A stretch of 40,410 nucleotides of DNA from a virus. The notes beneath the pieces were generated by a model, which saw only the letters and a program-made list of their open reading frames with translations, was not told where the DNA came from and did no database searches. This document shows positions 2,672-40,005 of the stretch, one piece after another. A program made the translations under genes and the position numbers. The stretch lies in the IMG/VR virus record IMGVR_UViG_3300037277_000065, positions 1 to 40,410 of that record; one strand, given 5' to 3'. Each line of letters opens with the position of its first letter. Within the stretch, counting starts at the first letter, position 1.

Positions 2672-2714
2672 ATCTTTTATTTCTTATACTTTGATTCGGA
2701 GAAAAGGTGAAATA

Positions 2715-4334
2715 ATGGGACAAGAGAACGAACTTATGAGAGTTTTGCCTTCCGTCTTTGCTGAGAGTACTTATCTCCTAGATGGAAGGCCTTTTCGGTT
2801 AACGGACAGACATTATCTTAAAGCGATATACGATGGGGACATTGAAGAAGGAATGATTATGTCTGGGCGACAAGTTGAGAAATCAACAACAGAGTCTACA
2901 CACATGGCAAATTATACTCTCCTGGTCCCTCATTTTAAAGCTTTATATTTTGCTCCCCTCACTGACCAAGTCAGAACATTCTCAAGAGAGAGAATTGGTA
3001 GACTTTATGATTTTAGTCAGCAGAATATTATTAAGAAAAACTTCATCGATAAAGATAATGCAAGTGCTGTAATGCTTAAAGAATTCAACAACGGATCTGT
3101 TAACTACTTCAAGCATTGTTTTGAAATGGGTGACAATATTCGTGGTATCACAGTTAATGGTATCTGGGGAGATGAAATTCAAGATATACATATAGATGCT
3201 CTCCCAGTAATAAGAGAAACACAAGCTCATGCTTTAGAGGCAGGAGCAAGAATGCGTGTTACTTGGTATACAGGAACACCAAAAACTTATAGTAATACTA
3301 TTCAACAGTACTGGGACAGATCTCGTCAGAACGAGTGGGTAGTGAAATGCCCCCATTGTAACAAATATCAGATTATGGGAGTTAAAAACCTGACCCCTAC
3401 AGAGTTTATTTGTCAAAAATGCAAACAGAATCTACCTAAGAGTTCTATTATCAACGGGATATGGTATGCTCTCCAACCAGACAAAAAGCTACAAGGGTTT
3501 AGAATATCTCAGCTAATGGTGCCTTGGATACTTGCGCCTGACATATGGGAGAAATACACTACGTATCCTGCTGACAAGTTTCAGAACGAAGTCTTGGGAA
3601 GAAGCTATGAAAATGCTGAGAAGCCATTTAATCCGTTAATGCTTGCTCAGATATCTAACAATGATCTTAAGTTCTATCCAAGAGCAGAAGGTTTGTTTGC
3701 TAACACTAAAAACTACATGGGTGTTGACTGGGGTAAAGGCGAGAAATCTTTTACTGTCGTAACTATATTCTCGCACAATCCTACGACAGGCAAGTTTCAA
3801 ATGTTGTTGTGCAAGAAGTACATAACTAGTGAAGAATTAGATCCTGATTATCAGATAAGAGACATTTCTAATCTGATGGTTATATATAAGGTCTGTTATT
3901 CTGTCGTTGACTGGGGCTTCGGGTATGTTCAGTATAGAAAACTTCAACAAGCATTCGGCTCTAGAATTGCGGCGTGTTATTATTCATTCAATCAAAAACT
4001 CGAGACAAAATTCGACCCACAAGATCAGAAGTGGGTTGTTAATAGAACCAAAGTAATTTTAAACTATATTAAGCTTGTAGCGAGCATAGGTATAGCATGG
4101 CCCGGAACAAACAAATCTGATTATTCATGGCTCTTCGATCATCATTTAGCAGAGCAAGCCGAGTATAGAAAGAGTATCAATGGTAAGTCTGAAGATTTAA
4201 TGTTTAATCATCCCGAAGGTCAACCAGATGATGGAATGCATTCTTGTGTTTACGCAATGCTTGCAATGCTTCTTTATCCACAAAGCTCTGCGACAGGCAT
4301 AGTTTTTGCAAGTGCATATGGAGGCAATATTTAA
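2715..4334 (+). CDS. terL: terminase large subunit (packaging ATPase/nuclease)
   Basis: This is the motor protein that drives DNA into the prohead and cuts the concatemer. The 539 residues show the two expected domains. The ATPase half has a Walker A-like SGRQVEKST (about 50-58) and a Walker B with catalytic acid, WGDEIQD (151-157). A zinc-finger-like insert has CPHC (212-215) and CQKC (233-236). The RNase H-fold nuclease has acidic motifs at GVDWG (Asp338), VVDWG (Asp399) and DDGMH (505-509). The zinc insert resembles GpA-type terminases. I place the start at ATG 2715, after AAAGGTGA, rather than the TTG at 2691. The gene converges with the first leftward fibre gene across a hairpin. Confidence 0.95.
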   Translation: MGQENELMRVLPSVFAESTYLLDGRPFRLTDRHYLKAIYDGDIEEGMIMSGRQVEKSTTESTHMANYTLLVPHFKALYFAPLTDQVRTFSRERIGRLYDFSQQNIIKKNFIDKDNASAVMLKEFNNGSVNYFKHCFEMGDNIRGITVNGIWGDEIQDIHIDALPVIRETQAHALEAGARMRVTWYTGTPKTYSNTIQQYWDRSRQNEWVVKCPHCNKYQIMGVKNLTPTEFICQKCKQNLPKSSIINGIWYALQPDKKLQGFRISQLMVPWILAPDIWEKYTTYPADKFQNEVLGRSYENAEKPFNPLMLAQISNNDLKFYPRAEGLFANTKNYMGVDWGKGEKSFTVVTIFSHNPTTGKFQMLLCKKYITSEELDPDYQIRDISNLMVIYKVCYSVVDWGFGYVQYRKLQQAFGSRIAACYYSFNQKLETKFDPQDQKWVVNRTKVILNYIKLVASIGIAWPGTNKSDYSWLFDHHLAEQAEYRKSINGKSEDLMFNHPEGQPDDGMHSCVYAMLAMLLYPQSSATGIVFASAYGGNI

Positions 4335-6156: not shown

Positions 6157-6184
6157 ATTTTAGCACATCTAAAAATAAAATCAA
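6157..6184 (-). promoter_or_regulatory. probable promoter of 420-aa fibre gene
   Basis: On the minus strand TTGATT, 16 bases, TAAAAT, overlapping the last codons of the 1470-aa fibre gene. It would give a leader of about 150 bases before the 420-aa gene. Confidence 0.5.
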
Positions 6185-14516: not shown

Positions 14517-14575
14517 TATTTAAAAGGAAGTAAATTAAAATTAAAATATAAAAATAGGTCGGGAGGTCTTTTATT

Positions 14576-15399: not shown

Positions 15400-17079
15400 A
15401 TGCTCAACGGACTTATTAATACAGCCATTGTGGGTTCTAGCATTAAGGATGGGGTAAAAAAAGCTAAGCAAGCTTTTAAGCCATCTACTAATGTCCATGA
15501 TGAGATTTTAAATAACAAGCCTGTGGTCATTCCGCCTGAATCTATAACAAACAAGTCAGCGTCAGATACTATTGATGCCCTATTTGAAAAGTTATCTTAT
15601 GAAGTGGTTGATGAAGATACAGGCAATGAAGGAAAAGAATTAAAACAGCATACTTTGCTACCCAAAGCTCTTGCGGCAGCAATACTTGCCGCAGGAGTTT
15701 CTAGCGCTATTTCACATAGAGACCCGTTTGCTCCATTTATCCAAATGAAAGATGCTGTAAAGTCTGTGCCTGAGATTGTTGGAGATAAATTCTTATTTAA
15801 GGGCAGAGCAGGAAAAGCTTTAAAGAAAGCATTCTCAAAAGCCAAAGATATGTCAAAGAATAAAGCTCCTGGAGAAGCTAACTTGTCTAACTTTGCAAAA
15901 GGTTTGCAAGGCGAGTCTAAAAAAACAGTTGCAGAAAAAGATAGATTCCTAAAAGGTCTTGTTCTCGGAGCAGGTATTGGTGCAGGTAATCTTGGTGTCC
16001 ATATGCTTGGAGATAAGTATTTTGAAAATAAGAATACTGTACAGAAGTCATATGATTCTATGCCAGAGCCTGTATCTGAAATTTATCATGCAAGAAAAAA
16101 AGATAAATACACAGACAACAGACGCAAACATAGTTCCAGTTATAACAACAGGACTCTGTATAAAACATCAGAAATTATAGACGAAGCTTATGAAAAACTA
16201 GCATCTACACCTACGTTTACTGGTGGCAAACATTTTTTTAAAAAAGTCCTAAAGGAAGACGTAGCTCAAAATGCATTACGTTCTCTGCCATACTTCGCAG
16301 TTCCTGCGGCAGCGAGCTACGCAACAGGAAGGGACTTGCGTTACGATGCACGCAAAGTGAATAAAGGTGGCAACGATAAGATAGTTATTGATGTTCCTAT
16401 AAGTGATTTTAAAAAGAAAAAGATGGAGAAAAAAGCAGGAATAGGCAAGCTTTTCAAGAAAAAACCTCCAGTGCACGAATCAATGCCTTGGAAGCATTTC
16501 TTTAAATATGAGATGCCTGCTGCGACTGCAAGGTCTTTATCGTTTGCGTTGCCTGCTACAGCTTTAACAGCTATGTCAGGAAGAAATATACGGGGATCTG
16601 GCGAAAAGATTAATCAAGCTGATAGAAAACCAGTAGAGCCAGGCAAAGCTCGAATCACTATAGAAACAGGTCATCATCACAAGACTCCAGAAATGGACTC
16701 AAAAAGTGCAACGGAGAGCATCGAATCGCTCTTTAAGACAGCGATAGCTGTGAACGTAAAAAAAAAGCGTAAAATAGACATACGTACGCGAGTAAAGCAA
16801 TTTATGGAAAGGAACAGGTTAAACCTTATGACAAATAGTGACATTTTAAAAAATATAGTTCGTGGAGCTATGGAGCAAAAGACCGTAAACATTACTTACG
16901 TTGATGCTAAAGGTCTAACATCTACCAGAGAGACAGAGCCTTACGAAATGAGAGATAATAAGTACTGGGGATATTGTAAAGACAAAAACAGTATCCGACA
17001 ATTCAAAATGGAGAATGTCACAAGCGCTACTGTGACAGAGAATAAATATTCTCCAAGATGGGAAGTTAAGATAAAGTGA
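15400..17079 (+). CDS. virion-operon protein with C-terminal WYL-like domain, 559 aa
   Basis: The last 75 residues look like a WYL domain: IVRGAMEQKTVNITY, then ETEPYEM, KYWGYC (521-526), IRQFKMENV and NKYSPRW. WYL domains bind ligands or nucleic acid and are usually parts of transcription regulators. The rest is unlike a regulator: alanine/glycine segments at 89-104 (KALAAAILAAGVSSA) and 185-204 (GLVLGAGIGAGNLG), plus a duplicated unit (277-333 and 365-424, each starting KHFFK and containing RSL, PA and a GR). A motif like SASDTIDALFEKL recurs at about 53, 255 and 436. AAGGAGG precedes the ATG. It is probably virion-associated or ejected; the WYL call rests on pattern match by eye. Confidence 0.75.
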   Translation: MLNGLINTAIVGSSIKDGVKKAKQAFKPSTNVHDEILNNKPVVIPPESITNKSASDTIDALFEKLSYEVVDEDTGNEGKELKQHTLLPKALAAAILAAGVSSAISHRDPFAPFIQMKDAVKSVPEIVGDKFLFKGRAGKALKKAFSKAKDMSKNKAPGEANLSNFAKGLQGESKKTVAEKDRFLKGLVLGAGIGAGNLGVHMLGDKYFENKNTVQKSYDSMPEPVSEIYHARKKDKYTDNRRKHSSSYNNRTLYKTSEIIDEAYEKLASTPTFTGGKHFFKKVLKEDVAQNALRSLPYFAVPAAASYATGRDLRYDARKVNKGGNDKIVIDVPISDFKKKKMEKKAGIGKLFKKKPPVHESMPWKHFFKYEMPAATARSLSFALPATALTAMSGRNIRGSGEKINQADRKPVEPGKARITIETGHHHKTPEMDSKSATESIESLFKTAIAVNVKKKRKIDIRTRVKQFMERNRLNLMTNSDILKNIVRGAMEQKTVNITYVDAKGLTSTRETEPYEMRDNKYWGYCKDKNSIRQFKMENVTSATVTENKYSPRWEVKIK

Positions 17080-17092
17080 GAGGAGTTGCACC

Positions 17093-19333
17093 ATGAGTCT
17101 AATAAAAGTTAAAAGAGGGATGAGAAATAATGTTCCTGCTTCTAACAGCGCAGGCGAATTAGTCTTTGCTATGGACACAAAAGAATTGCTTATTGGCAAT
17201 GGACCAAGCTTGCCAAATACGCTGTTGGTTAAAAAGAATGTCTTTGATGCAACTGTCGCTCCTATCAATACTAATGATGGATTGCAGGGCTATACCGTGG
17301 GTAGCATATGGGTGGATATTACACACAAAAAATGTTATACATGCATAGATACAACGACTGGTAATGCTGTATGGTCGGAATCTACACTTGCTAGAGGCAA
17401 TCTTGCAGAAACCACATCTTCTGTACTGACTATCACTGGAGGAACTTCGGCCATACTTGGTTCTGGAGTCACAGTTCAAGTTAAGCAGTCTAGTGGTTCA
17501 CAAGCTGGATATTTGTCTTCTACGGACTGGACTACATTTAATAATAAACAATCAGCTCTCACTATCGGCAGCGTTACAGAGTCTACATCGTCTGTGCTAA
17601 CTATAGTTGGCGGCACGGGAGCTATCATAGGCTCTGGAGTAACAGTTCAGGTTAAACAGGCTTCTGCATCTCAGTCAGGATATCTATCATCTACAGACTG
17701 GGCAACATTTAATAGTAAAGAGCCAGCTATTACGAAGGGCAATTTAATTGAGTCTACATCCTCTGTGCTAGCAATAACTGGCGGTACAGGAGCTGTGATA
17801 GGGTCTGGACTCACAATACAGGTAAAGCAAGCAACATCTGCACAAGCTGGTTATCTAACAAGTACTGATTGGGCAACTTTTAATGCTAAACAACCTGCTC
17901 TAGGTTTCACTCCTGAGAACATAGCTAACAGAGGAATCGCTTCTGGCTACGCAACCCTTGATGGCTCGTCAAAACTTGTTCAGAACGTAGACGCTAGCAA
18001 GATTACTTCCGGAACAATAGATATAGCTAGGCTCCCTGCTGGATCTTTAGAAAGATTAGTCAAAGTAGCTAACCAAACAGCTAGATTCGCCCTTACCACA
18101 GCTACGGTTCAGCTTGGTGATAGTGTTCAGCAACTTGACACTGGCATTATGTACATTGTAGTTGACGAAGCTAATCTCGGCAATGCCGCAGGATACACAG
18201 CATACACAGCTGCAACAGCATCTGCTGTTGATTGGAGTGGAGTTTTAAATAAGCCAACTACTTATTCTGGATATGGAATAACAGATGTTACGCCATCTTC
18301 ACATATAGGCTCTGGAGGGACTTCTCATGCTGTGGCAACAACTTCTGTTGCAGGTTTTGAAAGTGCCGCAGACAAAACTAAGCTTGATGGTATATTTGCT
18401 GGAGCAACAAAGGTTGAGTCGTCTGCTACGAATGGCAACATTAAAGTAAACGGTTCTGAGATGGTGGTCTTTACAGGAATAAAAAATAACTATGCAGCAA
18501 CTACTAATCCAACAGTGACTAATGACTCGTCTCAAGGATATTCTATAGGGAGTGCATGGGTAAACACTACTCTTGATAACTACTATGTATGCACTGATGT
18601 TACAGTTGGTGCCGCTGTATGGTTATTAACAGCGGCAATAAGTGCAGTACCTACTCCAAGAAGTTTTGTTCAAGGTTGCAGACTTGTTTATTTAACAGCT
18701 TCTACATTTGCAATTAATGTAGGAACTATAAATATTTCAGGTACAACATACGAAATTGCTTCAAAAATAAATGTAGGATGGGGGAATGTAGCGACAGGTA
18801 CAACGAAGGCAGCGAGCACTTGGTATTATGTTTATCTAAAGAACGTGTCAGGAGTCTTAACTCCATATATCTCAATAGCAGTTCCGGACAAAGATTCTTT
18901 TGGTAACACTTTAACTACCGCTTATGACACTGCGGCAAAATACAATTCGTCATGGGGAAGATTTGTAGGATCATTCAAGACGGATGCAAGTCAGAATCTT
19001 ATTAATTTTTATGTGAATGGGAATGTAGTTCAGTTTGTAGGAGCTGGATACCTGTACATACTCACATCAGGAACAGCAACAACAAAAACAGCAGTAAATT
19101 GTAGGACATATGTTCCGTACACTTCTCAGATGTTTAGTATGTACATTGAAGATTTGAGTGGATCGGGAGCTAAATTTGTTGGAGATTCTTCGTCATGGAC
19201 ATGGCAAGGTACTAACATGACAGGCTCTGTAGAAGTAAGTATACCAGTAACAAATAACAGTGTTTATTATCAAGTGTCTAGTGCGACAAGAAATATATCT
19301 CTTGGTGTACACGCATATCTAGAAGAAATATAA
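17093..19333 (+). CDS. modular tail fibre protein, 746 aa
   Basis: Residues 1-45 are the Mtd-type anchor (IKVKRGMRNNVP, then GELVFAMDTKELLIG). A module with GYTVGSIWVD, CYTCIDTTTG and AVW appears at about 62-100, and again near 480-515 (GYSIGSAWVN, YYVCTD). Between them lie three copies of the SSVLTITGGT / GYLSSTDWATFN unit shared with the 1470-aa fibre. The C-terminal 220 residues (from FVQGCRLVYLTAS) are beta-rich and unrepeated and may be the receptor-binding tip. The gene is on the opposite strand to the other fibres and contains the inverted repeats listed separately. AGAGGAG precedes the ATG. Confidence 0.9.
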   Translation: MSLIKVKRGMRNNVPASNSAGELVFAMDTKELLIGNGPSLPNTLLVKKNVFDATVAPINTNDGLQGYTVGSIWVDITHKKCYTCIDTTTGNAVWSESTLARGNLAETTSSVLTITGGTSAILGSGVTVQVKQSSGSQAGYLSSTDWTTFNNKQSALTIGSVTESTSSVLTIVGGTGAIIGSGVTVQVKQASASQSGYLSSTDWATFNSKEPAITKGNLIESTSSVLAITGGTGAVIGSGLTIQVKQATSAQAGYLTSTDWATFNAKQPALGFTPENIANRGIASGYATLDGSSKLVQNVDASKITSGTIDIARLPAGSLERLVKVANQTARFALTTATVQLGDSVQQLDTGIMYIVVDEANLGNAAGYTAYTAATASAVDWSGVLNKPTTYSGYGITDVTPSSHIGSGGTSHAVATTSVAGFESAADKTKLDGIFAGATKVESSATNGNIKVNGSEMVVFTGIKNNYAATTNPTVTNDSSQGYSIGSAWVNTTLDNYYVCTDVTVGAAVWLLTAAISAVPTPRSFVQGCRLVYLTASTFAINVGTINISGTTYEIASKINVGWGNVATGTTKAASTWYYVYLKNVSGVLTPYISIAVPDKDSFGNTLTTAYDTAAKYNSSWGRFVGSFKTDASQNLINFYVNGNVVQFVGAGYLYILTSGTATTKTAVNCRTYVPYTSQMFSMYIEDLSGSGAKFVGDSSSWTWQGTNMTGSVEVSIPVTNNSVYYQVSSATRNISLGVHAYLEEI
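17471..17508 (+). repeat. 38-bp inverted repeat, copy B
   Basis: Identical over 38 bases to the minus strand of 6464-6501, in the first repeat unit of the 746-aa fibre (about residues 127-139). Confidence 0.85.
17819..17872 (+). repeat. 54-bp inverted repeat, copy B
   Basis: Identical over 54 bases to the minus strand of 10117-10170 and in the same reading frame (about residues 243-260 of the 746-aa fibre). The flanks diverge at once, so the identity is local. Confidence 0.9.
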
Positions 19334-22150: not shown

Positions 22151-24148
22151 GTGTCAAAAGAATTTAGTGAGATTGAAGAATTACCATTTAGCGCTGTTGA
22201 TTTGAATAATCCTGTAGACCTCGATCCTAAGAAGGTTGAGTTCTTGAAGAAAGAAAAAGAAGCTGCACTCGGAGATGCTATGATTAAAGTAGCTTCTTTT
22301 GATGGTAGAGTTCAAGACCCTTACCCATCTCCGTTCTTGAACCTTGCAGATACACAAATACCAAGGACAACGACTGAGATATTTAGATGGTGTAAGTACT
22401 TCTATACTTTCGATCCATTAATAGCCGGTGCAGTAAATGCCCTTGCTTCATTTCCTATAACTGAGGTTTACCTTGAAGATAAGCATACTAACGCGGAGAG
22501 TGGCGATGATAGCGATGCTGTAAAGCTTTATAAGAGAGTGTTCTTTAAGGAGCTAAACATTTATAAGCTCTTAATAGAAATAGGCATAGACTATTACTTG
22601 TACGGTAACTGCTTCGTATTCGGTGAATTATGGACAAATCCTGCCTCTGGTGGTATTGAGTGGAAAAACATGGTTAGACTTGACCCTAGTAAGATAATCA
22701 TTGACTACAATCCTGCCACAAAAGAGAAGAAATACAAATGGCAGATACCAGCAACGCTTGTAAATATCGTTAAGAAGAAGAGACCTAAAGAAGAATATGA
22801 CAAAATACCTGACATCATAAAAGAAGCTGTAATCAAGAGTAGTGCGATAGTTCTTAACTCAAATAACATCTATCACTTCTCCAGACCTACAGATTCTATG
22901 GGTGAAAATATTATTTGGGGAACACCAGTTCCTGCTAATGTACTTAAGCTCCTTATGTACAGAAATGTTCTTCGTCAAGCACAAGAAGCTATAGCTAGAG
23001 AACATATAGTTCCTATGAGAGTTTATTATATAGAAAAGACTCAAGATTATAACCCTCAGGCAGACTGGAATGCTGTCGCTAATGCTTTTGCTAACGAACT
23101 CAATAAAGCTACGCGTGACCCTAACCACAAGGTGGTATCTCCTGTGCCAGTTAATATGATTAATATAGGTGGTCAAGGAAGAGCATTACTTGTAACCCCA
23201 GAAATAGAGCAGATTCAATCAGAAATACTTGCAGGCATGAATGTCCCTAGAGAATTCATATTTGGTGGGGTTAGTTATTCTGGCAGTTCAATATCTCTAA
23301 AGATACTAGAGAACCAATTCATCACATATAGACTGCTCCAAAAAGACTTTATGCAGAATTTCATCATAAAGAATATGGCTAGGGCAAGAAAAGAATGGGT
23401 AAGCGACAAAGATGATGACTCTTTAGTAACTGTAAAAATGTCTGACTTGAAGATGCAAGATGATGTGCAACAAAAACAACTCATCATACAGCTTAATGAA
23501 CAGGGCAAGGTTACTAACGATTACATGTGGAAAGTCATTGGTGTTGATGCTGACAAGATGAAAGCCGCTCTTGAAGCTGAGGCTTTAGAAGCTGTAGAAC
23601 TTGATACGAAAGTTAAACTGAAACAGCTTGATGCACAGTTAATTCTTCAAAAGAAACAGATAGAAATACAAGCAGAGCTTCAAAAACATCAAGCTAAATT
23701 TGCGCCAGTTGGACCTGACGGCAATCCTGTAGACCCTCAATCTGGAGCACCGATAGATCCTGGAACTGGAGCACCTATGATGGCTCAATCACCTCTTGTT
23801 AATGGTCAGACTCCAGCACCAAACTCTCCAGCAGGAGCAAATGGTGGAGGTATAGGAAAACATAATGCGAATCCTAAAGCTGCACAAAAAACAGACGGTG
23901 GAGGAAAAGGTCAACAGAATACTGATGGCAAGGAAGAGTCTCAAATAAAAGGAATTGCGATGCAACTTTCTAAGGTCGGAGATAAAGAAAAAGCAGAATT
24001 CCTAAAAACCTTGCCAAAGAACTATAGAGATAAAATAGAAGCAGCATTAAGCGAATTAGGTAAAGCAAAGAATTCGAGTGGTAAAAGTAAGATAGATATG
24101 CGTCCTATGCCTGAACAGAAACCTCCTCGAAGAAATAGCTTAAAATAA
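22151..24148 (+). CDS. portal protein, 665 aa
   Basis: This is the dodecameric head-vertex channel through which DNA is packaged and ejected. Family-like features are the N-terminal PLIAGAVNALASFPITEVYLE, YYLYGNCFVFGELW, MVRLDPSKIIIDYNP, and the later MNVPREFIFGGVSYSG followed by a long helix (SISLKILENQ and onward), where the channel stem and clip are expected. Residues about 515-605 are a Pro/Gly/Asn-rich, probably flexible tail (DGNPVDPQSGAP). The start is GTG 22151, preceded by GAGGTGA. Size exceeds many portals mainly because of the tail. It is coupled to the 609-aa gene before it and followed by a 58-aa ORF and the polymerase. Confidence 0.88.
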   Translation: MSKEFSEIEELPFSAVDLNNPVDLDPKKVEFLKKEKEAALGDAMIKVASFDGRVQDPYPSPFLNLADTQIPRTTTEIFRWCKYFYTFDPLIAGAVNALASFPITEVYLEDKHTNAESGDDSDAVKLYKRVFFKELNIYKLLIEIGIDYYLYGNCFVFGELWTNPASGGIEWKNMVRLDPSKIIIDYNPATKEKKYKWQIPATLVNIVKKKRPKEEYDKIPDIIKEAVIKSSAIVLNSNNIYHFSRPTDSMGENIIWGTPVPANVLKLLMYRNVLRQAQEAIAREHIVPMRVYYIEKTQDYNPQADWNAVANAFANELNKATRDPNHKVVSPVPVNMINIGGQGRALLVTPEIEQIQSEILAGMNVPREFIFGGVSYSGSSISLKILENQFITYRLLQKDFMQNFIIKNMARARKEWVSDKDDDSLVTVKMSDLKMQDDVQQKQLIIQLNEQGKVTNDYMWKVIGVDADKMKAALEAEALEAVELDTKVKLKQLDAQLILQKKQIEIQAELQKHQAKFAPVGPDGNPVDPQSGAPIDPGTGAPMMAQSPLVNGQTPAPNSPAGANGGGIGKHNANPKAAQKTDGGGKGQQNTDGKEESQIKGIAMQLSKVGDKEKAEFLKTLPKNYRDKIEAALSELGKAKNSSGKSKIDMRPMPEQKPPRRNSLK

Positions 24149-24340: not shown

Positions 24341-27300
24341 ATGTTACACCAAAAGACTGTTGATTTAAAAAATAGAATGCTTGAATATATCAAAGCCAAC
24401 ACTCCCATTAAATCTAATGGGAGAAGTCTTTATATAGAGAATTTGAGTATTACTGAGCCAGAGGGGCTTGACGACTTCGAAGCTCACATAGATATGAAAA
24501 ACACTAAGAAGAGCCTCGTTGGTTATCTTAGAGGAAAGATAGTTATCAAGGATGATGCTACTAATAAAGTCTTGTCCAGAAGTAACGACAGAAACATAAT
24601 ACCTATTTATTATCTAACAGAGCGTGGGACTTATATTGTCGGTGGGAATGAGAAAAATCTTCTTAGTCAAATGATTTTAAAGCCTGGTATTTATACTGAC
24701 CGCGACAGCAAAGACCATACTGTCATTACAGAATTTAGATTCGATAGAAATAAATACACAGCGTTCATGCCCTCAATAGAGATAATGGTAGACCCTATAA
24801 AGACTAAGTTCTTCATAGAAGTTGGTGGAATGAATGCTCAAAAGTTCAATGGTATAGATTTTTTAAGGGGCATTGGATTCTCTGATACAGAAATAAAGAG
24901 AATGACGGGCAATGACTCATTCTCTGACCAATTGTTTTCAGATAGTAAGGGTAAAGCCTCTGCTATGACAATTGGAAAATCTATCATTGGTAAGAACTTA
25001 AAAGCACAAACTCCAGACAAAGCCCAAGTAGAGATACTTGATTTCTTTCAAGAGCATGGTAACTTCGGAGCTGACGGAAGCAGTGTAAATAAAGCAACTC
25101 TTGGTATGCCTGGAACCAAGCTTACAAAGGATTTGTTCTCACGAGCAGTATCTAAAGCATTCTCTGTAGTCAGAAGTGAAGAATCTTCTGATGATAGAGA
25201 TGACCTTAGGTTCAAGCCTGTACTTGACGATAATGATTTGATAATGAAAGAAATAGATAAAGATTTTGAATCCTTTAAAAGAAATGTAGTTGCGTCATTA
25301 AAAGATGTAAAGACTTCGACGTGGACGAAGATTAAGGCGGCTAAGTTTGGAACTGCTGTAGATAGTTTTATGAAGAACAGTGATTTATCTCAGAACACTG
25401 AGCAAACAAACCCTCTCTTTATGGCTGCTATTAATAACAGAGTCACTCAGCTTGGTGAGCGTGGGAGTGGTGGTATTAACTCTCAGGCCAAGATACAGAC
25501 TGTAGACCCTAGAGATTTAAAGCCTATGGGTATCAATAGACTCGACCCTATAGAAACTCCTGAATCAGAGAATATAGGTTTAGTTGAACACTTATCACAG
25601 TCTGCAATACTTAGGGATAGAACTATTTATGTACCTGTCTTGAAGGTAAAGAATGGTAAGGCTGAGGTATCCAAAGCTAACACCGTAGAAATTTCACCTG
25701 ACGACGAATACGATAAGACGGTAGCATTCTATGACTCTCGCTTTATAAAACGAGATGGAAGCACTCTTATCTTCACCAAAGACACAGTTCCTGCTAGACG
25801 CAAGGGCAAGATAGTTGATGTCCATATCTCTGATATTGATTACGTCGATAGTGCCCCTCAGAACGTCATGGGTCTATCTGCAAATATGATACCATTTGTT
25901 ATGCATAACGATGGTAACAGAGCTCTTATGGGTACTAATATGCAGAAACAAGCCATCCTTCTAAAGAACAGAGAAGTACCTTTAGTTATGGCTTCTGTGA
26001 ATGGTACCAATAAGACCTATGAAGACTTGATAGGAGAAATGCATGGCAGACCTGTCAAAGCTAACATCAATGGTGTTGTGGACAGAGTAGAAGAACACAA
26101 GATAGTCATTAAGGACGATGAAGGCAATGAGCACAATCATCAGTTCTATAATTACTTTCCTTTGAATCAAAGTTTCATCCATAACGAAGTAACTGTTAAG
26201 CCGGGAGACAGAGTAAAAAAAGGCGACATGGTTGCAGAAGGTTGGCAGACCAAAAATGGTAAGCTTGCAATGGGCATTAATGCAAGGATAGGTTACCTTC
26301 CATACAAAGGTTACAACTACGAAGATGGTATTGTTATCTCTAAAGAGTTTGCAAACAAGATGGTTACTGATGAGATGCACGAAGAAACCTTTGACATCCG
26401 TGAAGAGTGGGTTGGAGGAAAAGGTAGTCGTGGACTAGACGAATTTAGAAAAATAGCTAGGAATCCAGACTTCTCTAAACTTGATGGGGATGGTGTTGTC
26501 AAGGTTGGAGAAAAAATAGGTCCAGGAAGTGTCCTTATTGGATATTTAAAACCTGTAATTAAGCGTGAGCCGCAAGGTGTTGAGCGTTTATTTGGTTTTG
26601 ATAGTAATGCAGATTTTAGATATGGCTCATATACTATCCCTGCTACAAGTTACGTGTCTGGAACAGTCAAAAGAATTGCTGTTGTTAATAATCCAGAAGA
26701 AGGCGTTAAGCAGAGAATAATAATAACTGTTGCGACATCTAAACCTCTAAAGCTTGGGGATAAGCTCTCAGGTAAGCATGGTAATAAAGGAACTATAACT
26801 AAAATACTTCCTACTGACGAAATGCCAGAAGCAGAAGACGGAAGAAGGTTAGATGTTATATTCTCTCCACTTGCCGTTCCTTCAAGAAAGAATTTAGGTC
26901 AACTTCTAGAAGTAGGAGCAGGGCTTATCGCTGAGAAGACTGGGAAGCCTTTTATTGTTAATAACTTTGACCATGCTGAGAAAGACAGAGTAATCAAAGG
27001 CCTTAAAGATATAGGATTCCCGGATGGCAAGATGAAGATAACCTTAAAGGAAAAGAATCCTGATGGCACATTCAATAACATAGTAACTGATAATGCAGCT
27101 ACTGTTGGTAATATGTACATCATGAAACTTAAACATAAGGTAGATGAAAAAATTCAAGCCAGAAGTAATGAAGAGGGTAAGTTACCTAGCCTTATCACCA
27201 ATATGCCTTCAAAAGATATTGGGCAACAAGCTGGTGAGAAGCATAATCCTCAAAGTTTTGGTGAAATGGAACAACGTGCCCTTCAAGCACACGGTGCTGT

Positions 27301-30300
27301 TTGGAACATACTTGAAAGTTCGACTATCAAAGCCGATGGCGGTGGTCAAAAATCACGAAGAGCAGCTATATTCTCTGCTCTTGCTACTGGTAACTTTGAT
27401 GGTCTTGATTTCCCTGCTACTCCAGAAACAGTTCAAGTCCTCGCTGATAATCTAAAAGCTTTAGGACTGAATATGCAACCTCTTAATAATGGTAAGACCG
27501 CAAAGAGTTTTGACAATCTTTACGATAGCATTGCACTTACACCTATTAAGCCATCTCAGATGCTTAAAATTATAGGTCAAGGCAACGAAGTTACTGAATA
27601 CAATCTTGGATTTAAAGCAGAAGGAAGTCAAGAACGTGCCAAGGTAGATACTGCTCTTCTTGGCGGCTTACATGATCCTAACATCTTTGGCGTTGCAGGA
27701 AGTGAAGAAGCAAGAAGAAGATGGGGCTATATCAAGCTCAACACACCAATGCCAAACCCTGTGCTCATGGGAAGTACTTCGTTTAATCCATACATGTATT
27801 TAACAGGTATGAGTTCTACGAATCTTAAGAGCTTATTTGATGAGAAGAAAGACAATGTACTCGTTATTGACCCTGATTCAATGAAGGGACTTAGCGATGA
27901 TGACAAGTCTGTTTACAAAGAAACTTTAAAAGCATCAGGACTCAAGGCTGGTGATGTAATTACAACTACTCAGGCAGATAAAATATCTGATGAACACGGC
28001 CCTCTTCTTTGGAAGGCAGGAGGCGAAGGATTACAACATCTCCTTGACCACGTTGACCTTGATGCTGAACTTGCTGACGTTAAGAAGAAACTAAAGACTG
28101 CTAAAGGCAAGGACGTAAACTACGAATACAGAAGATACAAGACTCTCGCTAACATGAAGGAAAATGGAATGTCTCCTTCTGATATGATGCTTCATTATGT
28201 GCCTGTAGCACCTACTTATTTAAGACCAGCCAAGCTTAGAAATAAGATATGGACTTATGCTGATTTGAATAAGCTTTATTCTAACGTAGTTAAAGCTTCT
28301 CAGCTTGTAGATAGAGCAGATGTTAATGGTTTTGATATGAGAGAAACTCTTGATGCTACAGAAGCTTCGAAACTTAATCGTACAATATACAAGAGTCTTT
28401 CAGATTTAACAGGAAAGAGTAAGTTCCATGAAAAAAGAACAAACTCTGACTTAAAAGGTATCATAGGGAACATAAGTGGTAAGGATGCTCTCATTAGAGG
28501 TAGAATGCTTTCAAAAAGAGTAGACTTCTCTGCAAGGTCTGTTATAGGTGTAGACCCTACACTATCAATAAACGAAGTTGGAGTGCCTTATGATATAGCG
28601 AGAACCGTTTACAAGCCTTTTATAATCAAAAAGATTATTGAAGAAGGGTTAACTATAGATGATGAGGTTGAAGCTGAAAAACTTTGGGCTAATGATAAGG
28701 ATATGAATGTTAGAAGAATTGTTAATGAAGTTGCTGCGGATAGACCAGTTATAATAAATAGACAGCCTTCACTACACAAATTCAGTATTCAAGCTTACAA
28801 ACCTGTCATTCGTCATACTCAAGATGGTGAGATAGTAAGAAGTATTCAGCTAAATCCTTTAGTAGTTACTGGATTTAATGCTGACTTTGATGGCGATACA
28901 ATGTCTTTACATGTGCCTATTACAGAGAAAGCAAAAGATGAAGCTAACAGATTGATGAAACCTTCTCAGAATCTTATAAATCCTACGGACGGAAAGATGA
29001 TTATTGAGATTCGTCACGAAATGACCTTAGGTGTTTACTACTTGACTATGGATACAAACAAAATAGAAGGTCCAGGAGTATCGTTTGGAAGTGGAGCGGA
29101 ACTGCGTTCTGCATATGAAAAAGGCAAAGTGGGAGCTAGGACAAAAGTATCTATACCTGAACTTTCGAATGTAACAGCAGGGCAAGCAATGTTCTTATCT
29201 TTGCTACCTAAAGACTACAGAGGAACAACACCGAAAGCTTGGACAAGTAAAGATGTTTCAGCTGTCCTTATAGCAATGTACAAAGACTGTGAAAAAACTC
29301 GAGGAGAAAAAGTTTCTCTTCAGACTATAAACCAGACTATAGATGCCATAAAAAGACTTGGTTTCATGGCAGCAACTCGCTCAGGTATCAGTATAGGTAT
29401 CAATGACTTTAAGAAGATGAAGATAGCAGAAGATATATTTAGAAAACACGTTAATGAAGCTATGAAAAGAACCGATTCGAAAGAAGAGGGATTAATATTA
29501 GGTCATTTAGGTGCTGAGAAAGAAATTCAGAACAGACTTGGAGCTGGAGAGGTTCTTGAACACGACAACCCTATCAGAATTATGATGGCTTCTGGAGCTA
29601 GAGCCAAAGCTGACCAGGTAAGACGTATGATGGTTAGTGTTGGTGTCGGTGCTAATGTAGATAATCAGCTGACAGCGCCTGTAATGCATTCGTTGTCTGA
29701 CGGACTCGCACCTCAGGAATACTGGGTTCATGGTCATGACTCTAGAAAAGGTATGTATGACAGAGTTGTTTCAACTAGAGATCCTGGTACTCTTACTCGT
29801 GAAATCTGGTCTGCTATGCAGGACATTGTAATCAAGGAGTCTGACTGTCATACTAAAGATGGAATAGTCTTTAATATTTCCGACAAGTCAGTAGTGGGAA
29901 GATACTTAGTCAATGAAGTTGTTGGAGAGGAAGGACAGATAGCTAGAGCTGGTTCTTTGGTTACGGAGACTCTCCAAGAAGAGATGTATAAAAAAGGCAT
30001 TAAAACTTTAAAGATGCGTTCTCCTCTTAAGTGTAAGACCGTAAAAGGCTTGTGTCAAAAATGTTATGGGACAATGCCAGGAACTCTTGCTTTGCCTAAG
30101 ATAGGTACAGCTGTCGGTGTATTAGCTTCACAAGCAATGGGCGAACCTGTTACTCAGATGACAATGAATACGTTCCACAGTGGAGGAACGAGTTCTAGTG
30201 CTACTCTTGGACTTCCTAGAATAGAAGAAATCCTTGGAGTAAGCTCTCACCCATCTAACAAAGCTACTTTAGCTAATGTTAGTGGTAAGATAACAGATAT

Positions 30301-31237
30301 CATAAAAGGACCTAAAGGTACTTTTGATACGGTTATGATAAATGATAAAGATAAGCACATTATTCCTCATACGCTGAATGGGTTATCTCAAGACTTAAAG
30401 ATTAAACTTCATGATACAGTAACTCGTGGTGACTTCTTAACTCACGGAGACCTAGATGAACTTAGTGGTGGAGAGAATATGAGTGTCGTAGGTGATATAG
30501 GCATAACCTCTGCCGACCCACATGACCTTTTGAAACTAAGACAAAACGTATTCGGTCAAGATGCTGCGTTAGATTATACTCAGAAGTATTTAACAAAGAG
30601 CATGGAGTATGCTTTTGATAAAACTATTGGTGCAGGAAACATAGACAACAAACACCTTGAAACTATCATTGGTAAACTTACATCAAAAGCTCAAATCACT
30701 GACCCCGGAGATTCTAAATACATTCGAGGGGAGATAGTCGATAAAAATGTTATAGACTATTGGAATGCTAATAATACAGGAGAGCTTAGCTCTGCTAAAG
30801 CCTCTATAGCTCAAGCATCTAGTCTTATAGGTAAGCTATCTTTAGATACTTATAGGGACAAAGCAGGCAATGTACTCATTAAAAAAGGTGAGGCTTTCAA
30901 TAGCCAGAACATACCAAAGCTTATCATGGCGAATGTGAAAGATGTTAGAGTTTCTAAAGCCCCAATAAAATACTCCGTCAAACTGGCAACCAGAGACACT
31001 ATAATACCTATGGGTCATGAAAACTGGGTAAGTAACCTTGCACACGAAAACATACCTGAGCAAATCGCTAGAGGCGCTGTGATGGGTCAGATAGATGAAC
31101 TAAACGACCCACGTTCAAGACTCATGACAGGTAAGTTACTTAACATCGGTGAGGGTCACAAGGCTTATGAGTCAGACAGAACTTGGGCTAATAGCATCGC
31201 AGGCAGAATGTTTAACTTATTCTCTGGAAAGAAGTAA
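24341..31237 (+). CDS. single-chain RNA polymerase, beta fused to beta-prime, 2298 aa
   Basis: A multisubunit-type DNA-dependent RNA polymerase in one chain. The beta part (to about 1045) shows NEKNLLSQMILKPG, the fork IETPESENIGL (404 on), GNRALMGTNMQKQA, GYNYEDGIVIS, a flap, GDKLSGKHGNKG (806-817) and the C-terminal FGEMEQRALQAHGA. The beta-prime part shows HDPNIFG (1111-1117), WGYIKL, clamp-helix region, GRMLSKRVDFSARSVIG, NRQPSLHK, catalytic NADFDGD (1513-1519; three Asp for Mg), trigger loop NTFHSGG (His1946) and a zinc site (Cys1836, 1898, 1905, 1908). The N-terminal beta-prime zinc domain is missing between 1117 and 1126. E. coli beta plus beta-prime total 2749 residues. No alpha, omega or sigma gene is visible. 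GGAAGGGG lies before the ATG. Confidence 0.97.
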   Translation: MLHQKTVDLKNRMLEYIKANTPIKSNGRSLYIENLSITEPEGLDDFEAHIDMKNTKKSLVGYLRGKIVIKDDATNKVLSRSNDRNIIPIYYLTERGTYIVGGNEKNLLSQMILKPGIYTDRDSKDHTVITEFRFDRNKYTAFMPSIEIMVDPIKTKFFIEVGGMNAQKFNGIDFLRGIGFSDTEIKRMTGNDSFSDQLFSDSKGKASAMTIGKSIIGKNLKAQTPDKAQVEILDFFQEHGNFGADGSSVNKATLGMPGTKLTKDLFSRAVSKAFSVVRSEESSDDRDDLRFKPVLDDNDLIMKEIDKDFESFKRNVVASLKDVKTSTWTKIKAAKFGTAVDSFMKNSDLSQNTEQTNPLFMAAINNRVTQLGERGSGGINSQAKIQTVDPRDLKPMGINRLDPIETPESENIGLVEHLSQSAILRDRTIYVPVLKVKNGKAEVSKANTVEISPDDEYDKTVAFYDSRFIKRDGSTLIFTKDTVPARRKGKIVDVHISDIDYVDSAPQNVMGLSANMIPFVMHNDGNRALMGTNMQKQAILLKNREVPLVMASVNGTNKTYEDLIGEMHGRPVKANINGVVDRVEEHKIVIKDDEGNEHNHQFYNYFPLNQSFIHNEVTVKPGDRVKKGDMVAEGWQTKNGKLAMGINARIGYLPYKGYNYEDGIVISKEFANKMVTDEMHEETFDIREEWVGGKGSRGLDEFRKIARNPDFSKLDGDGVVKVGEKIGPGSVLIGYLKPVIKREPQGVERLFGFDSNADFRYGSYTIPATSYVSGTVKRIAVVNNPEEGVKQRIIITVATSKPLKLGDKLSGKHGNKGTITKILPTDEMPEAEDGRRLDVIFSPLAVPSRKNLGQLLEVGAGLIAEKTGKPFIVNNFDHAEKDRVIKGLKDIGFPDGKMKITLKEKNPDGTFNNIVTDNAATVGNMYIMKLKHKVDEKIQARSNEEGKLPSLITNMPSKDIGQQAGEKHNPQSFGEMEQRALQAHGAVWNILESSTIKADGGGQKSRRAAIFSALATGNFDGLDFPATPETVQVLADNLKALGLNMQPLNNGKTAKSFDNLYDSIALTPIKPSQMLKIIGQGNEVTEYNLGFKAEGSQERAKVDTALLGGLHDPNIFGVAGSEEARRRWGYIKLNTPMPNPVLMGSTSFNPYMYLTGMSSTNLKSLFDEKKDNVLVIDPDSMKGLSDDDKSVYKETLKASGLKAGDVITTTQADKISDEHGPLLWKAGGEGLQHLLDHVDLDAELADVKKKLKTAKGKDVNYEYRRYKTLANMKENGMSPSDMMLHYVPVAPTYLRPAKLRNKIWTYADLNKLYSNVVKASQLVDRADVNGFDMRETLDATEASKLNRTIYKSLSDLTGKSKFHEKRTNSDLKGIIGNISGKDALIRGRMLSKRVDFSARSVIGVDPTLSINEVGVPYDIARTVYKPFIIKKIIEEGLTIDDEVEAEKLWANDKDMNVRRIVNEVAADRPVIINRQPSLHKFSIQAYKPVIRHTQDGEIVRSIQLNPLVVTGFNADFDGDTMSLHVPITEKAKDEANRLMKPSQNLINPTDGKMIIEIRHEMTLGVYYLTMDTNKIEGPGVSFGSGAELRSAYEKGKVGARTKVSIPELSNVTAGQAMFLSLLPKDYRGTTPKAWTSKDVSAVLIAMYKDCEKTRGEKVSLQTINQTIDAIKRLGFMAATRSGISIGINDFKKMKIAEDIFRKHVNEAMKRTDSKEEGLILGHLGAEKEIQNRLGAGEVLEHDNPIRIMMASGARAKADQVRRMMVSVGVGANVDNQLTAPVMHSLSDGLAPQEYWVHGHDSRKGMYDRVVSTRDPGTLTREIWSAMQDIVIKESDCHTKDGIVFNISDKSVVGRYLVNEVVGEEGQIARAGSLVTETLQEEMYKKGIKTLKMRSPLKCKTVKGLCQKCYGTMPGTLALPKIGTAVGVLASQAMGEPVTQMTMNTFHSGGTSSSATLGLPRIEEILGVSSHPSNKATLANVSGKITDIIKGPKGTFDTVMINDKDKHIIPHTLNGLSQDLKIKLHDTVTRGDFLTHGDLDELSGGENMSVVGDIGITSADPHDLLKLRQNVFGQDAALDYTQKYLTKSMEYAFDKTIGAGNIDNKHLETIIGKLTSKAQITDPGDSKYIRGEIVDKNVIDYWNANNTGELSSAKASIAQASSLIGKLSLDTYRDKAGNVLIKKGEAFNSQNIPKLIMANVKDVRVSKAPIKYSVKLATRDTIIPMGHENWVSNLAHENIPEQIARGAVMGQIDELNDPRSRLMTGKLLNIGEGHKAYESDRTWANSIAGRMFNLFSGKK

Positions 31238-31268: not shown

Positions 31269-31300
31269 TTTATTATATGAAATCAAAGGAGAGAGCCACA

Positions 31301-31648
31301 ATGGGTTCTAATAACAAGCAGGTGCAACCAAAACATGCGCCAAAGAAAGAAGCGAGAGCAATTATAGTATCGCAGATGCTTGAACAAACAAGGAACGAAG
31401 TTATCAGAAGTGATATAGAACTCAACTTTTTAAAGAGATTGCAAGTTAAAATCTCTGAGGGCAATATATCAATTTCTCAATATACATCAGACGTACTTAA
31501 GCAGAACATAGAATTAACTGCTGACCAGTACAATCTATCATTGGAAAGACTTTATTACCTTAAGGAAATTAAAGAAGGTATTAAAGCAGAAGAAGTTATG
31601 TCAGCTGTAAAACACTCTACTCCCTCTTCGGTGGCGGTAGAGTATTAG
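31301..31648 (+). CDS. hypothetical protein, 115 aa
   Basis: ATG 31301 follows AAGGAGAG and is preferred to an ATG at 31277 that sits before that site. The 115-residue protein begins MGSNNKQVQPKHAPKK and has a basic, flexible N-terminus followed by two or three amphipathic helices (IIVSQMLEQTRNEV, later LELTADQYNLSLERL-like region). No domain is recognised. A gene this short with its own TTGACA promoter directly behind the polymerase could be a regulator, but that is only context. Its 3' end forms a UUCG-loop hairpin (31614-31643) next to the structured RNA. Confidence 0.75.
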   Translation: MGSNNKQVQPKHAPKKEARAIIVSQMLEQTRNEVIRSDIELNFLKRLQVKISEGNISISQYTSDVLKQNIELTADQYNLSLERLYYLKEIKEGIKAEEVMSAVKHSTPSSVAVEY

Positions 31649-32375: not shown

Positions 32376-34505
32376 TTAAATCTCCTTCCCAGGGAATAAG
32401 AATCTTTTGATGTCGTCTAGTTTTTGAGAACCTCTATTCCATGGAAACGTAGGTCTGAACTGGTCTTTGTAGCAAGATCTCCTAGAGAAACGTTCTCTCT
32501 CAGTTTTTAGCATCCTCGAATCAAGTATTGATACAACGCATTTGTCGTGTATAGACCTTACACCTCTACCAACAGCTTGTTTTAAAGTTATGAGCATCAT
32601 AGGCACGGAGTAATTCTCAAACATTCCTCCAAAGCCGTATAGCTGAACTAGCTTTTCCATCATAGGGTCTCCTGCCATAGGAAAAGGTAGCTTATCAATA
32701 ATCAGGCACCTGAGAGCATATCCGGGAACGTCAACTCCAGTAAAGAATGAGCGAGTAGCAAAGAGTACACTGTCTACGTCGTTCTTAAACTCATCAATAA
32801 GTACAGGAGCTGGTGCTTGGTACTGCATGAAGGAACGTATTCCGTACTTCGCTTCAAGTATTGGAGCAACTATCTCATATGTTTTTCTCATATTTGAAAC
32901 AGATGTGAACAAGCACAAAGCTCCACCTTCACAGGCTCCAACTATCTGCTCAATATGAAGAGGGAGCGATTCTGCAAACTTAGGGTCATTTCCTGCTACA
33001 GTATTCTCAGGGAAGTACCACCATTGTTGTTTAGTAAGGTCAAACGGTGATTCTCCAATGTATTCCCACACTCTCTCTGGGGGGCATTCGCAGATGCCTG
33101 TTTGAGCCTTAATAAAATTGAAGTTACCATTAGTACTAAGTGTTGCAGACGTAAAGATGCAAGATAAATCTTCTCGCCTTAAAAACGACGAGAATATATC
33201 TCTTCCTACTTCTATCGGTTTATTGCTAATCGAAGTACGTTGATTAGGTTTGAACTTCTCTTTTATGTCTGGAGATTTGTCAAGCCAATACACTTCGTCT
33301 GAACTTGTGCATAGCTCGAAACAATTACGCATTAAGTTCGCCATCTCAGAGCATCTTTGCTGGAGTCGTACAAGCCCATTCTTGAACATATTATATTCTT
33401 TACTATCCCAATCTCCACCATAACCTTTGTGCTCTTCGATACACTCTACAAGAAAGTCTTCGATAACACTTATGCAACCTCGGATATCTCTAATTACGTT
33501 GATGATATTAACACGTTTGTCATCATTTAAGTAAGTGTACGGGTCAACAACAATACTTTGTTCGTATTTGTCGTCCTTAAAGTGCATTCCGTACATCCAC
33601 TCAAAGTACTCTGCGGCATTGTCCATGATGTAAGCTGTGTAATTATTAATCCTCTCTTGAGCTCTCTCGGCTTGAAGGGAGAGTTCAGCCATTATTTCCT
33701 TATACTTTTCAAGGAGATTCTCAATGTCTTTCTTAAGGTATCTCAGTGTGTTCAGAGACACCTTCGCCAATCTAAAGTCTCTGAACTTATTAGCAAACTC
33801 ATGAGCTTCATCGAACACTAAAACACTATACTCTGGAAGAAGATTTCCTTTGCCTATCTTCCAATCAGAGAAAAGAACGTGGTAGTTAGTAATTATGATG
33901 TTCGCCCCTAATGCTTTAGCTTTGTGTATTTGATAGAAGCAACTATTGTACTGCGGACAATGATTTCCTTCGCATTCTCCGTCCCTAGAGCATACAAGTT
34001 GGTCTTCTATCTCTGGAGGTATTTGGTGAGGAAATTCTGAAATATTACCTGTAGTAGTCTTTCTTGCCCACATTGCAATCTTTGAAGTATCTACTTCAGC
34101 ATTTCTGAATCCATACGCTTCAATCGTTAAGAACTTTCGTTTACAAAGAAAGTTCTTCTTACCCTTAAGTAAAGCACACGGTATCTCTCTGCCATATATA
34201 TTACTGAATATCTTTTGCACCAAAGGTATATCCTTTAGCATAAGTTGTTCTTGAAGATTAATTCCATCAGTAACAACTATAATATTCCCCGATAAGTCAT
34301 TGTAGAAATACTCAAATGTGGGGATGAGGTAAGCAAATGTCTTACCAAATCCACAAGGACCTTCCAAGATGAAGTGTTTGTGCTCTTGTAAGGCATCGTA
34401 TATTCTATGCGCAGCTTCTATTTGTGATTCTCTTGGAACATAGTCTTTCTTTTCTTTCTGGATGAGTCCATCAGCAGAAAATATAACATCAATTGTCTCA
34501 TTCAT
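32376..34505 (-). CDS. dinG: DinG/XPD-like iron-sulphur helicase, 709 aa
   Basis: A superfamily 2, 5'-to-3' helicase of the DinG/XPD type. Visible motifs are Walker A GPCGFGKT (49-56), motif Ia VVTDGINLQEQ, four or more cysteines suitable for a 4Fe-4S cluster between motifs Ia and II (Cys121, 172 or 178, 183, 189), the DEAH box VFDEAHEF (232-235), and the C-terminal FFTGVDVPG and QAVGRGVRS (motif VI arginines). This fits repair of R-loops or unwinding of displaced strands, and here probably phage replication or recombination. It overlaps the RuvC-like gene by 8 bases, with GGAGG before the ATG. The symbol follows family resemblance; it may be a phage-specific member. Confidence 0.92.
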   Translation of the reverse strand: MNETIDVIFSADGLIQKEKKDYVPRESQIEAAHRIYDALQEHKHFILEGPCGFGKTFAYLIPTFEYFYNDLSGNIIVVTDGINLQEQLMLKDIPLVQKIFSNIYGREIPCALLKGKKNFLCKRKFLTIEAYGFRNAEVDTSKIAMWARKTTTGNISEFPHQIPPEIEDQLVCSRDGECEGNHCPQYNSCFYQIHKAKALGANIIITNYHVLFSDWKIGKGNLLPEYSVLVFDEAHEFANKFRDFRLAKVSLNTLRYLKKDIENLLEKYKEIMAELSLQAERAQERINNYTAYIMDNAAEYFEWMYGMHFKDDKYEQSIVVDPYTYLNDDKRVNIINVIRDIRGCISVIEDFLVECIEEHKGYGGDWDSKEYNMFKNGLVRLQQRCSEMANLMRNCFELCTSSDEVYWLDKSPDIKEKFKPNQRTSISNKPIEVGRDIFSSFLRREDLSCIFTSATLSTNGNFNFIKAQTGICECPPERVWEYIGESPFDLTKQQWWYFPENTVAGNDPKFAESLPLHIEQIVGACEGGALCLFTSVSNMRKTYEIVAPILEAKYGIRSFMQYQAPAPVLIDEFKNDVDSVLFATRSFFTGVDVPGYALRCLIIDKLPFPMAGDPMMEKLVQLYGFGGMFENYSVPMMLITLKQAVGRGVRSIHDKCVVSILDSRMLKTERERFSRRSCYKDQFRPTFPWNRGSQKLDDIKRFLFPGKEI

Positions 34506-35169
34506 TTAAAAGAACCTCCGTCTTATACCAGTAGTTGAAGAGAACGCCTGCATCACCTTCGTCATCTGTATTAAATATTATTCCATACTCTTTACTCATA
34601 AGTTCACCCAGTGCTCGTTTAGTTATGTCTGGGATTCGCCTTAACTCTTCTTCACTTTTTCCTTTACAAAACTCAACAACTACTTTGCCTACATTTAAAA
34701 TACTTCTTACCTTGCTTACGGCGTATTCTTTGACTGGAATGCCAAGCCTGCCTGACAGTCCGAGTAAAGTACCCATGACTTTGGCAAGTAATATAGAAGT
34801 AAGTATGCCGTTGAATATTGCATTCTTCTCTACCAAAATAAGGTCAGGCTTTATATTATCAATAAGTCCTGCCATTGCCTTGCTTATGTTTGCTAACACA
34901 TACAAGTCCTTCTGCGCACGCACTGCATCATCTCTACGCTCTTTTTCAGCTTTACTGATACTTACTTCGCCTATCTTGTAATAAGTGCTTAGAAGCTCCC
35001 CTGACTTCGTGGGGAGCTTCTTTTTTGTTTTCATAAAACCCAAGGTTACAGCTGAGTAATCGGGTGGGATGATAGGGCATGACATTATTTTATTTATCTT
35101 TTTTCCCTCGAGTCTTACCGTCACTATCCCTATGCAACGACTCGATAAGTCGAACGCCATTACTATCAT
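34498..35169 (-). CDS. RuvC-like RNase H-fold nuclease (Holliday resolvase type), 223 aa
   Basis: A RuvC-like nuclease by its acidic motifs: MAFDLSSRCIG (Asp7), LILVEKNAIFNG (Glu114) and TDDEGDAGVL (Asp/Glu at 202-206). This is the usual three- or four-acid metal site for resolving branched DNA. The length is near that of phage and bacterial RuvC-type resolvases. Residues about 47-85 form an inserted lysine-rich stretch. The ATG at 35169, after AGAGGTGA, lies 80 bases inside the end of the 118-aa gene in another frame. A strong plus-strand terminator hairpin lies inside the gene at 34991-35027. It acts beside the helicase in the replication block. Confidence 0.85.
   Translation of the reverse strand: MIVMAFDLSSRCIGIVTVRLEGKKINKIMSCPIIPPDYSAVTLGFMKTKKKLPTKSGELLSTYYKIGEVSISKAEKERRDDAVRAQKDLYVLANISKAMAGLIDNIKPDLILVEKNAIFNGILTSILLAKVMGTLLGLSGRLGIPVKEYAVSKVRSILNVGKVVVEFCKGKSEEELRRIPDITKRALGELMSKEYGIIFNTDDEGDAGVLFNYWYKTEVLLNE
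34991..35027 (+). terminator. intrinsic terminator on plus strand, inside leftward gene
   Basis: An 11-base perfect stem AGAAGCTCCCC (34991-35001) / GGGGAGCTTCT (35011-35021) is followed by a T run ending near 35027. It reads as a terminator only on the plus strand, opposite to the RuvC-like gene that contains it (about codons 48-60). Confidence 0.7.
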
Positions 35170-39954: not shown

Positions 39955-39965
39955 GATTACTTATA

Positions 39966-40005
39966 CCTGACCTGTTATTTTATGAGAAAAAAATAACAGG
40001 TCAGG
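39966..40005. terminator. 16-bp hairpin after right-edge gene
   Basis: CCTGACCTGTTATTTT (39966-39981) pairs exactly with 39990-40005 around an eight-base loop. It follows the stop of the right-edge gene and forms a tandem with the next hairpin. It may terminate or stabilise the transcript. Confidence 0.7.

Follow-up and report, generated by a model that had tools for sequence, protein, structure and literature searches.

A fused beta-beta' RNA polymerase gene in a phage structural gene cluster and a promoter-like element found across its relatives

Introduction

The RNA polymerases (RNAPs) closest to the one considered here are the mReC enzymes, a deep phage branch outside Bacteria (Weinheimer and Aylward 2020, PMC7481178) in which beta and beta' are presented as subunits; that paper mentions fusion for crAssphage only, and its selection criteria do not require separate subunits. 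Single-chain, two-barrel phage RNAPs have also been described, namely phi14:2 gp66 of the crAss-like phages and gp96/gp64 of P23-45, and gp96 is found in the virion (PMC10770324). The vRNAP and nvRNAP of the phiKZ/AR9 type distribute beta and beta' over four or five polypeptides (PMC7598289).

In this work, we focus on a 40,410-nt stretch of DNA, hereafter the window, and on the gene for a fused beta-beta' RNAP that it carries. The window is a 40.4-kb virus fragment, so that a gene missing from it is uninformative. Like the mReC RNAPs, the fused enzyme is phage-encoded, sits in a tailed-phage context (TerL, portal), matches models of cellular beta and beta' and carries the NADxDGD motif, this likeness having been tested with Pfam and PDB sequences and not with the COG models of PMC7481178. 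It differs from them in being one chain and in having lost the beta' zinc ribbon. With the crAss-like and P23-45 enzymes, it has in common the single-chain two-barrel build, but those enzymes and YonO are highly diverged, whereas the fused enzyme has nearly all bacterial domains (E ~1e-100). The phiKZ/AR9 RNAPs are likewise phage multisubunit enzymes related to beta/beta', but their arrangement is the opposite one, split instead of fused, and the PHROG matches to such families are weaker. A preliminary description of the locus had set it apart from the reduced crAss/YonO and the split phiKZ enzymes, and the near-full domain set on one chain agrees with this. We found no description of a fused bacterial-type phage beta-beta' in the literature, mostly non-subscription and supplements aside; by that measure the combination of a single chain with bacterial-like sequence appears to be new, each trait being known separately in crAss/P23-45 and in mReC.

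A single frame for beta and beta'

The gene and the features located within it are the following.

24341..31237, + strand: fused beta-beta' RNA polymerase gene, 2298 aa (ORF reading, Pfam, phmmer)
24341..27493, + strand: beta part, approximately residues 1-1051 (alignment to E. coli and B. subtilis beta; Rpb2 domains)
25367..25456, + strand: rifampicin-pocket segment (alignment)
26756..26791, + strand: GDKLSGKHGNKG, with the active-site lysines K808 and K816 of beta (alignment)
27494..31234, + strand: beta' part, approximately residues 1052-2298 (alignment, Rpb1 domains)
27677..27727, + strand: site of the missing N-terminal beta' zinc ribbon, DPNIFGVAGSEEARRRWG (alignment)
28877..28897, + strand: NADFDGD, Mg-binding catalytic loop, residues 1513-1519 (alignment)
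29699..29803, + strand: bridge helix region, approximately residues 1787-1820 (alignment)
29846..30064, + strand: second zinc site, C1836/C1898/C1905/C1908 (alignment)
30152..30187, + strand: trigger loop TQMTMNTFHSGG, residues 1938-1949 (alignment)

The frame starts with ATG and contains no internal stop over its 2298 codons. Its product carries Rpb2 domains 3, 6 and 7 followed by Rpb1 domains 1-5, with Rpb1_1, Rpb1_4 and Rpb2_7 slightly under the curated Pfam cut-offs and the remaining RNAP domains over them. When compared with solved structures by phmmer, residues 260-1046 match bacterial beta (E = 1.7e-97) and residues 1218-2163 match bacterial beta' (E = 4.5e-114). The two parts abut almost without a linker, at a boundary near residue 1052, close to the residue 1045 proposed in the preliminary description. 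The structures predicted for the beta and beta' parts are of low confidence (mean pLDDT 58 and 50, respectively, with 5-6 relatives aligned).

The catalytic blocks can all be followed in the alignment, from the two lysines to NADFDGD, the bridge helix and the trigger loop; in this last, an Asn takes the position of E. coli R933, as it does in the aligned archaeal sequence. All the universal beta' motifs had been announced for this frame, which is right for NADFDGD, the trigger loop and the second zinc site, and wrong for the N-terminal zinc ribbon (E. coli C70-C88): the alignment shows this ribbon to be absent from the fused protein, the IFG and RRRWGY flanks being connected by few residues. 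At the level of sequence, it is confirmed that 24341-31237 encodes all of beta and then all of beta', except for the beta' zinc ribbon. In the rifampicin pocket, E. coli Q513 and R529 are retained and three positions are changed (D516E, H526I, S531T), substitutions from which resistance of the fused RNAP to rifampicin is predicted.

The same fusion is found, in full, in the IMG/VR contigs L001 (166.8 kb), L002 (152.6 kb) and L049 (160.5 kb) and in L056, a 15-kb contig (1-15198), while L019 is fused up to the contig end. The four complete fusions are uninterrupted and 2276-2328 aa long, and the fused relatives are 43-51% identical to the window's protein across most of the beta' part. An artefact of assembly or sequencing, or a decayed gene, could be suspected in a 40-kb metagenomic virus fragment, and the preliminary description had itself raised the joining of two genes by a sequencing error. 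Since four other contigs are uninterrupted and a fifth is open to its end, such an error is excluded in practice; with motifs and synteny conserved as well, these relatives already refute the artefact, to which we attach a negligible probability.

A different objection is that the fusion is real in sequence, and that the chain is cut or re-initiated into separate beta and beta', which would then assemble with host alpha. The separate beta'C pieces of related phages, described below, and the lack of an encoded alpha gene both point in this direction. The junction, however, has neither a strong ribosome-binding site nor a conserved internal start, and the frame is open through the fusion in all six members of the fused clade, which makes a cut or re-initiated chain improbable.

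Half-fused relatives and phylogeny

The isolates nearest in organization are Salmonella phage Arash (gp206/gp216) and the Vibrio phages D69, D148 and D181. In this group, as in the window, the RNAP is next to the portal gene, beta is joined to the N-terminal part of beta', the ribbon is missing, and, in Arash and D69, a sigma is encoded and alpha was not found. A related early element is also present, strong in Arash and weak or variant in the D69 group. The proteins of Arash and D69 that adjoin the portal gene are of 1525-1527 aa and comprise beta and the first half of beta'. Unlike in the fused enzyme, beta'C is separate (606-609 aa), some genes are intron-interrupted, and identity to the fused enzyme is only about 26-27%. 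Other contigs of the Arash clade have beta/beta' split at additional sites, and the beta' proteins of Carin-5, YerA41 and a Rhizobium phage are separate. The zinc ribbon, gone in Arash and D69, is retained in Carin-5, YerA41 and the Rhizobium phage RHph. As for the introns, group I introns were recognized in the beta part of the Arash clade in L213 (1958-2238) and L030 (9536-9817), with 101 and 108 bits to Rfam RF00028, and Vibrio phage D181 has a homing endonuclease gene beside its RNAP group I intron.

Two trees were built from a small sample, which leaves out the published mReC contigs and the Helicobacter and Wolbachia sequences. In the quick one (31 rows, 1966 columns, eight bacteria included), the six fused enzymes group in a single clade (100), the phages are separated from the eight bacteria (99) and the fused enzymes and Arash are sisters (93). 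The careful one (26 rows) recovers the fused clade and the phage-bacteria split, both at 100/100, and groups Arash with Carin-5/YerA41 at 83/76, a grouping that carries a long-branch warning. Holding the fused enzymes and Arash together was not rejected by the AU test (p-AU 0.227), and the fusion, the zinc-ribbon loss and the promoter element that the Arash/D69-type and fused enzymes have in common favour a sister relation. Within this sample, the placement of the fused enzyme by sequence in a phage RNAP lineage outside the sampled bacteria is firm, in contrast to the choice of its sister group. Because the sampled phage enzymes all branch outside Bacteria, the fused one grouping with phage RNAPs outside both Bacteria and Archaea, we assign it to the deep phage mReC lineage, an identification which rests on tree position and on the definition in PMC7481178. 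The distinct class suggested at the outset does not stand in isolation: the enzyme falls in the phage clade outside Bacteria, where the mReC phages have been placed, and Arash and D69 already have beta fused to the first part of beta'. As it lies outside the sampled bacteria and shows archaea-like letters at some catalytic positions, the fused lineage bears on the age of phage RNAPs.

In bacteria, beta and beta' form a single chain in Helicobacter and Wolbachia, through rpoB-rpoC fusion. In contrast to the phage gene, these belong to cells and work with an alpha and a sigma that the cell encodes, and their existence makes it conceivable that a host fusion of this kind was recently captured. 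Against such a capture, the clade of phage proteins lies outside the eight sampled bacteria (Helicobacter and Wolbachia not among them), their identity to bacterial RNAPs reaches only about 30% and they have lost the zinc ribbon, so that we regard it as very improbable.

Viral contigs were scanned with no more than two short peptide patterns, which brought up little, and the scan of genome contigs gave one fused relative, its other matches being archaeal RNAPs picked up through shared motifs. The plasmid matches, bacterial rpoB-rpoC of apparently chromosomal origin, served as bacterial references only; several C. difficile 'plasmid' records carry rpoBC together with rpsL, rpsG and fusA. Unverified 'phage' records (OR846602, OR844998, OR849902 and others) hold bacterial rpoB-rpoC with 29-31% matches, apparently host contamination, and were set aside.

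Genomic context, alpha and sigma

The neighbours of the RNAP gene in the window place it in a phage structural cluster.

2691..4334, + strand: terminase large subunit (TerL) gene
22151..24148, + strand: portal protein gene, directly upstream of the RNAP gene, syntenic in relatives
31277..31648, + strand: small ORF downstream of the RNAP gene, conserved in relatives
32376..34505, - strand: DEAD-type helicase gene, early strand, syntenic

With TerL and portal genes nearby, and with the Pfam and phmmer matches given above, the initial view of a phage-encoded, near-complete bacterial-type fusion within a structural cluster is well founded. The TerL, portal, RNAP, helicase and resolvase genes are clustered in the same order in G001 and G002, two of three long contigs of the fused clade. 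In G001, the RNAP strand carries the genes for the major head protein, tail sheath, baseplate, fibre and terminase, and the opposite strand those for DNA polymerase III alpha, helicase, Thy1 and sigma. L056 falls in the bin of a MAG labelled as uncultured Bacillus, which hints at the host of the fused lineage; the clade probably infects Bacillota.

A cellular bacterial core RNAP has its own alpha gene, whereas none was found in the 15 phage records searched (PF01193 in 5, PF01000 in 10 more); the same search had matches in 13 of 14 cellular genomes. The lack of a visible alpha in the window is in this way extended to its relatives, although these enzymes may still use the alpha of the host. 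That of sigma, by contrast, comes from the window being a 40-kb fragment: G001 and G003, two of the three long contigs of the fused clade, encode a protein with sigma-70 region 2 that scores over the curated cut-off, and so does each of the eight Arash-clade genomes examined. The G001 protein has regions 2 and 4. In G002, whose contig may be incomplete, the profile search found no sigma-70 region-2 protein. A second RNAP was also looked for by HMM in G001, G002, G003 and the window, each of which turned out to have one two-barrel RNAP.

An early promoter-like element

A 19-nt element recurs in the upstream regions of the three long fused-clade contigs, reading TCTAGTATAAGAAATAAAA in G001 and differing little from it in G002 and G003; its core is GTATAAG, often GGTATAAG. 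The search for motifs was exploratory, words being tested on the very genomes in which they had been found, save for Arash, G004, G006, G008 and G009, which were examined after GTATAAG had been seen in G001-G003. Arash has about 30 elements of the GGTATAAGTAA type. Counts of GGTATAAG are strongly oriented, being (forward/reverse) 17/0 in G001, 7/1 in G003, 1/29 in G004, 30/1 in G006, 36/0 in G008, 1/31 in G009, 1/30 in Arash and 0/2 in the window. The exact word is weak in G002, G007 and D69, and G007 has TGTTATAAG instead.

On the strand opposite the RNAP gene, the element is found in 25 of 74 upstream regions in G001 (shuffled mean 2.4), 13 of 64 in G003 (2.2), 16 of 77 in Arash (1.1) and 16 of 100 in G008 (1.5). 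None of 200 dinucleotide shuffles reaches these counts, and the opposite-strand count of G007 is also above all 200; on the RNAP strand of G001, G003, Arash and G008, the element is not above chance. All genomes with a clear motif follow this rule, with the element opposite the RNAP and structural genes, except G002, where it is enriched on the RNAP-carrying strand, none being directly before the RNAP gene. There is no enrichment in six phages with separate or split subunits, nor in three large portal relatives without RNAP. In G001, the sigma gene itself has an early element 69 nt upstream. The window contains only two or three early elements.

39960..39967, - strand: GGTATAAG, early-type element before ORF 39600-39899 (-)
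34522..34529, - strand: GGTATAAG, lying 16 nt upstream of the helicase start (34505)
2675..2693, - strand: CAAAGTATAAGAAATAAAA, promoter-like match, target uncertain

By these sequence patterns, GTATAAG is a family-wide promoter-like element, newly found here, which precedes the non-structural genes. Its association with the fused and half-fused enzymes suggests that the fused RNAP recognizes it. Promoter specificity, initially described as unclear, is no longer a blank, and the link between element and enzyme is still one that we infer.

A weaker late element

On the structural strand, another element, [CTG]TAAAATA, stands out. It is clearest in G007 (13 of 23 regions vs 0.6), weaker in Arash, G008 and G001, and not significant in G002, G003 and the window. 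One copy precedes the RNAP gene of the window.

24141..24147, + strand: TAAAATA, candidate late element (weak), 193 nt before the RNAP start

TAAAATA is found 189-220 nt upstream of the RNAP gene in the window, G001 and G002, a conservation which could be of coding origin since the window copy overlaps the portal stop codon.

A possible transcription programme

Taken as a whole, we give slightly better than even chances to a scheme in which an alpha-less single-chain RNAP is made late, is carried in the virion and reads the early genes from GTATAAG, before sigma redirects it. The frame would encode a functional single-chain bacterial-type RNAP from a lineage of phages with contractile tails; this fused branch of the mReC-type RNAPs could owe to its beta-beta' tether the assembly otherwise ensured by the alpha dimer. 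The enzyme, whose gene lies among structural genes, would be made late, alongside the head and tail proteins, and packaged in the virion. At the start of infection, the packaged RNAP would begin transcription of the early, opposite-strand genes at a single-element promoter centred on GTATAAG. The sigma, whose gene is preceded by GTATAAG in one relative, may then help to redirect it to late promoters of the TAAAATA type on the structural strand. Against this scheme stand G002, with its element on the RNAP strand and no sigma found, the low number of early elements in the window, and the late element's failure to reach significance in G002, G003 and the window. A stricter version, in which the virion-carried alpha-less RNAP would start at a lone GTATAAG without sigma, fusion and ribbon loss replacing alpha and part of the promoter machinery, seems to us rather unlikely.

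The main rival to this scheme is a non-virion polymerase: the fused enzyme would be made during infection and transcribe only middle or late genes, and GTATAAG would be read by the host RNAP, with or without a phage sigma. In T4, a phage sigma enables the host RNAP to use a lone -10-like element; this precedent, the sigmas encoded by the phages studied here and the TAAAATA element before structural genes all speak for such a polymerase. It fits less well that the element is common to a Salmonella phage, Arash, and to a clade probably infecting Bacillota, that its final letter is G where the host -10 consensus has T, and that phages which have this portal family but no RNAP show no enrichment of it. 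We hold the non-virion polymerase to be possible, at about one chance in three.

A nearly complete bacterial-type core RNAP in one chain, with no alpha gene, would be a compact and genetically tractable enzyme with which to study why alpha, the zinc ribbon and sigma are required. Through the promoter element that they have in common, it can be tested directly whether these phages control their own transcription as soon as infection begins, and Salmonella phage Arash is an isolate in which this could be done.

Other genes

G001 carries, at 13611-14606 (L150), a 331-aa ORF with PDDFDGDTMGL, a sequence like the RNAP catalytic loop, which has no beta' profile or Pfam match. In the structural cluster of the window, a 559-aa protein (15400-17079) has a WYL domain over the Pfam cut-off and homologues in G001 and G002. 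The products of 6181-10593 and 17093-19333 both combine a Mtd_N-like N-terminal domain with matches to tail-fibre families, and are probable receptor-binding proteins.
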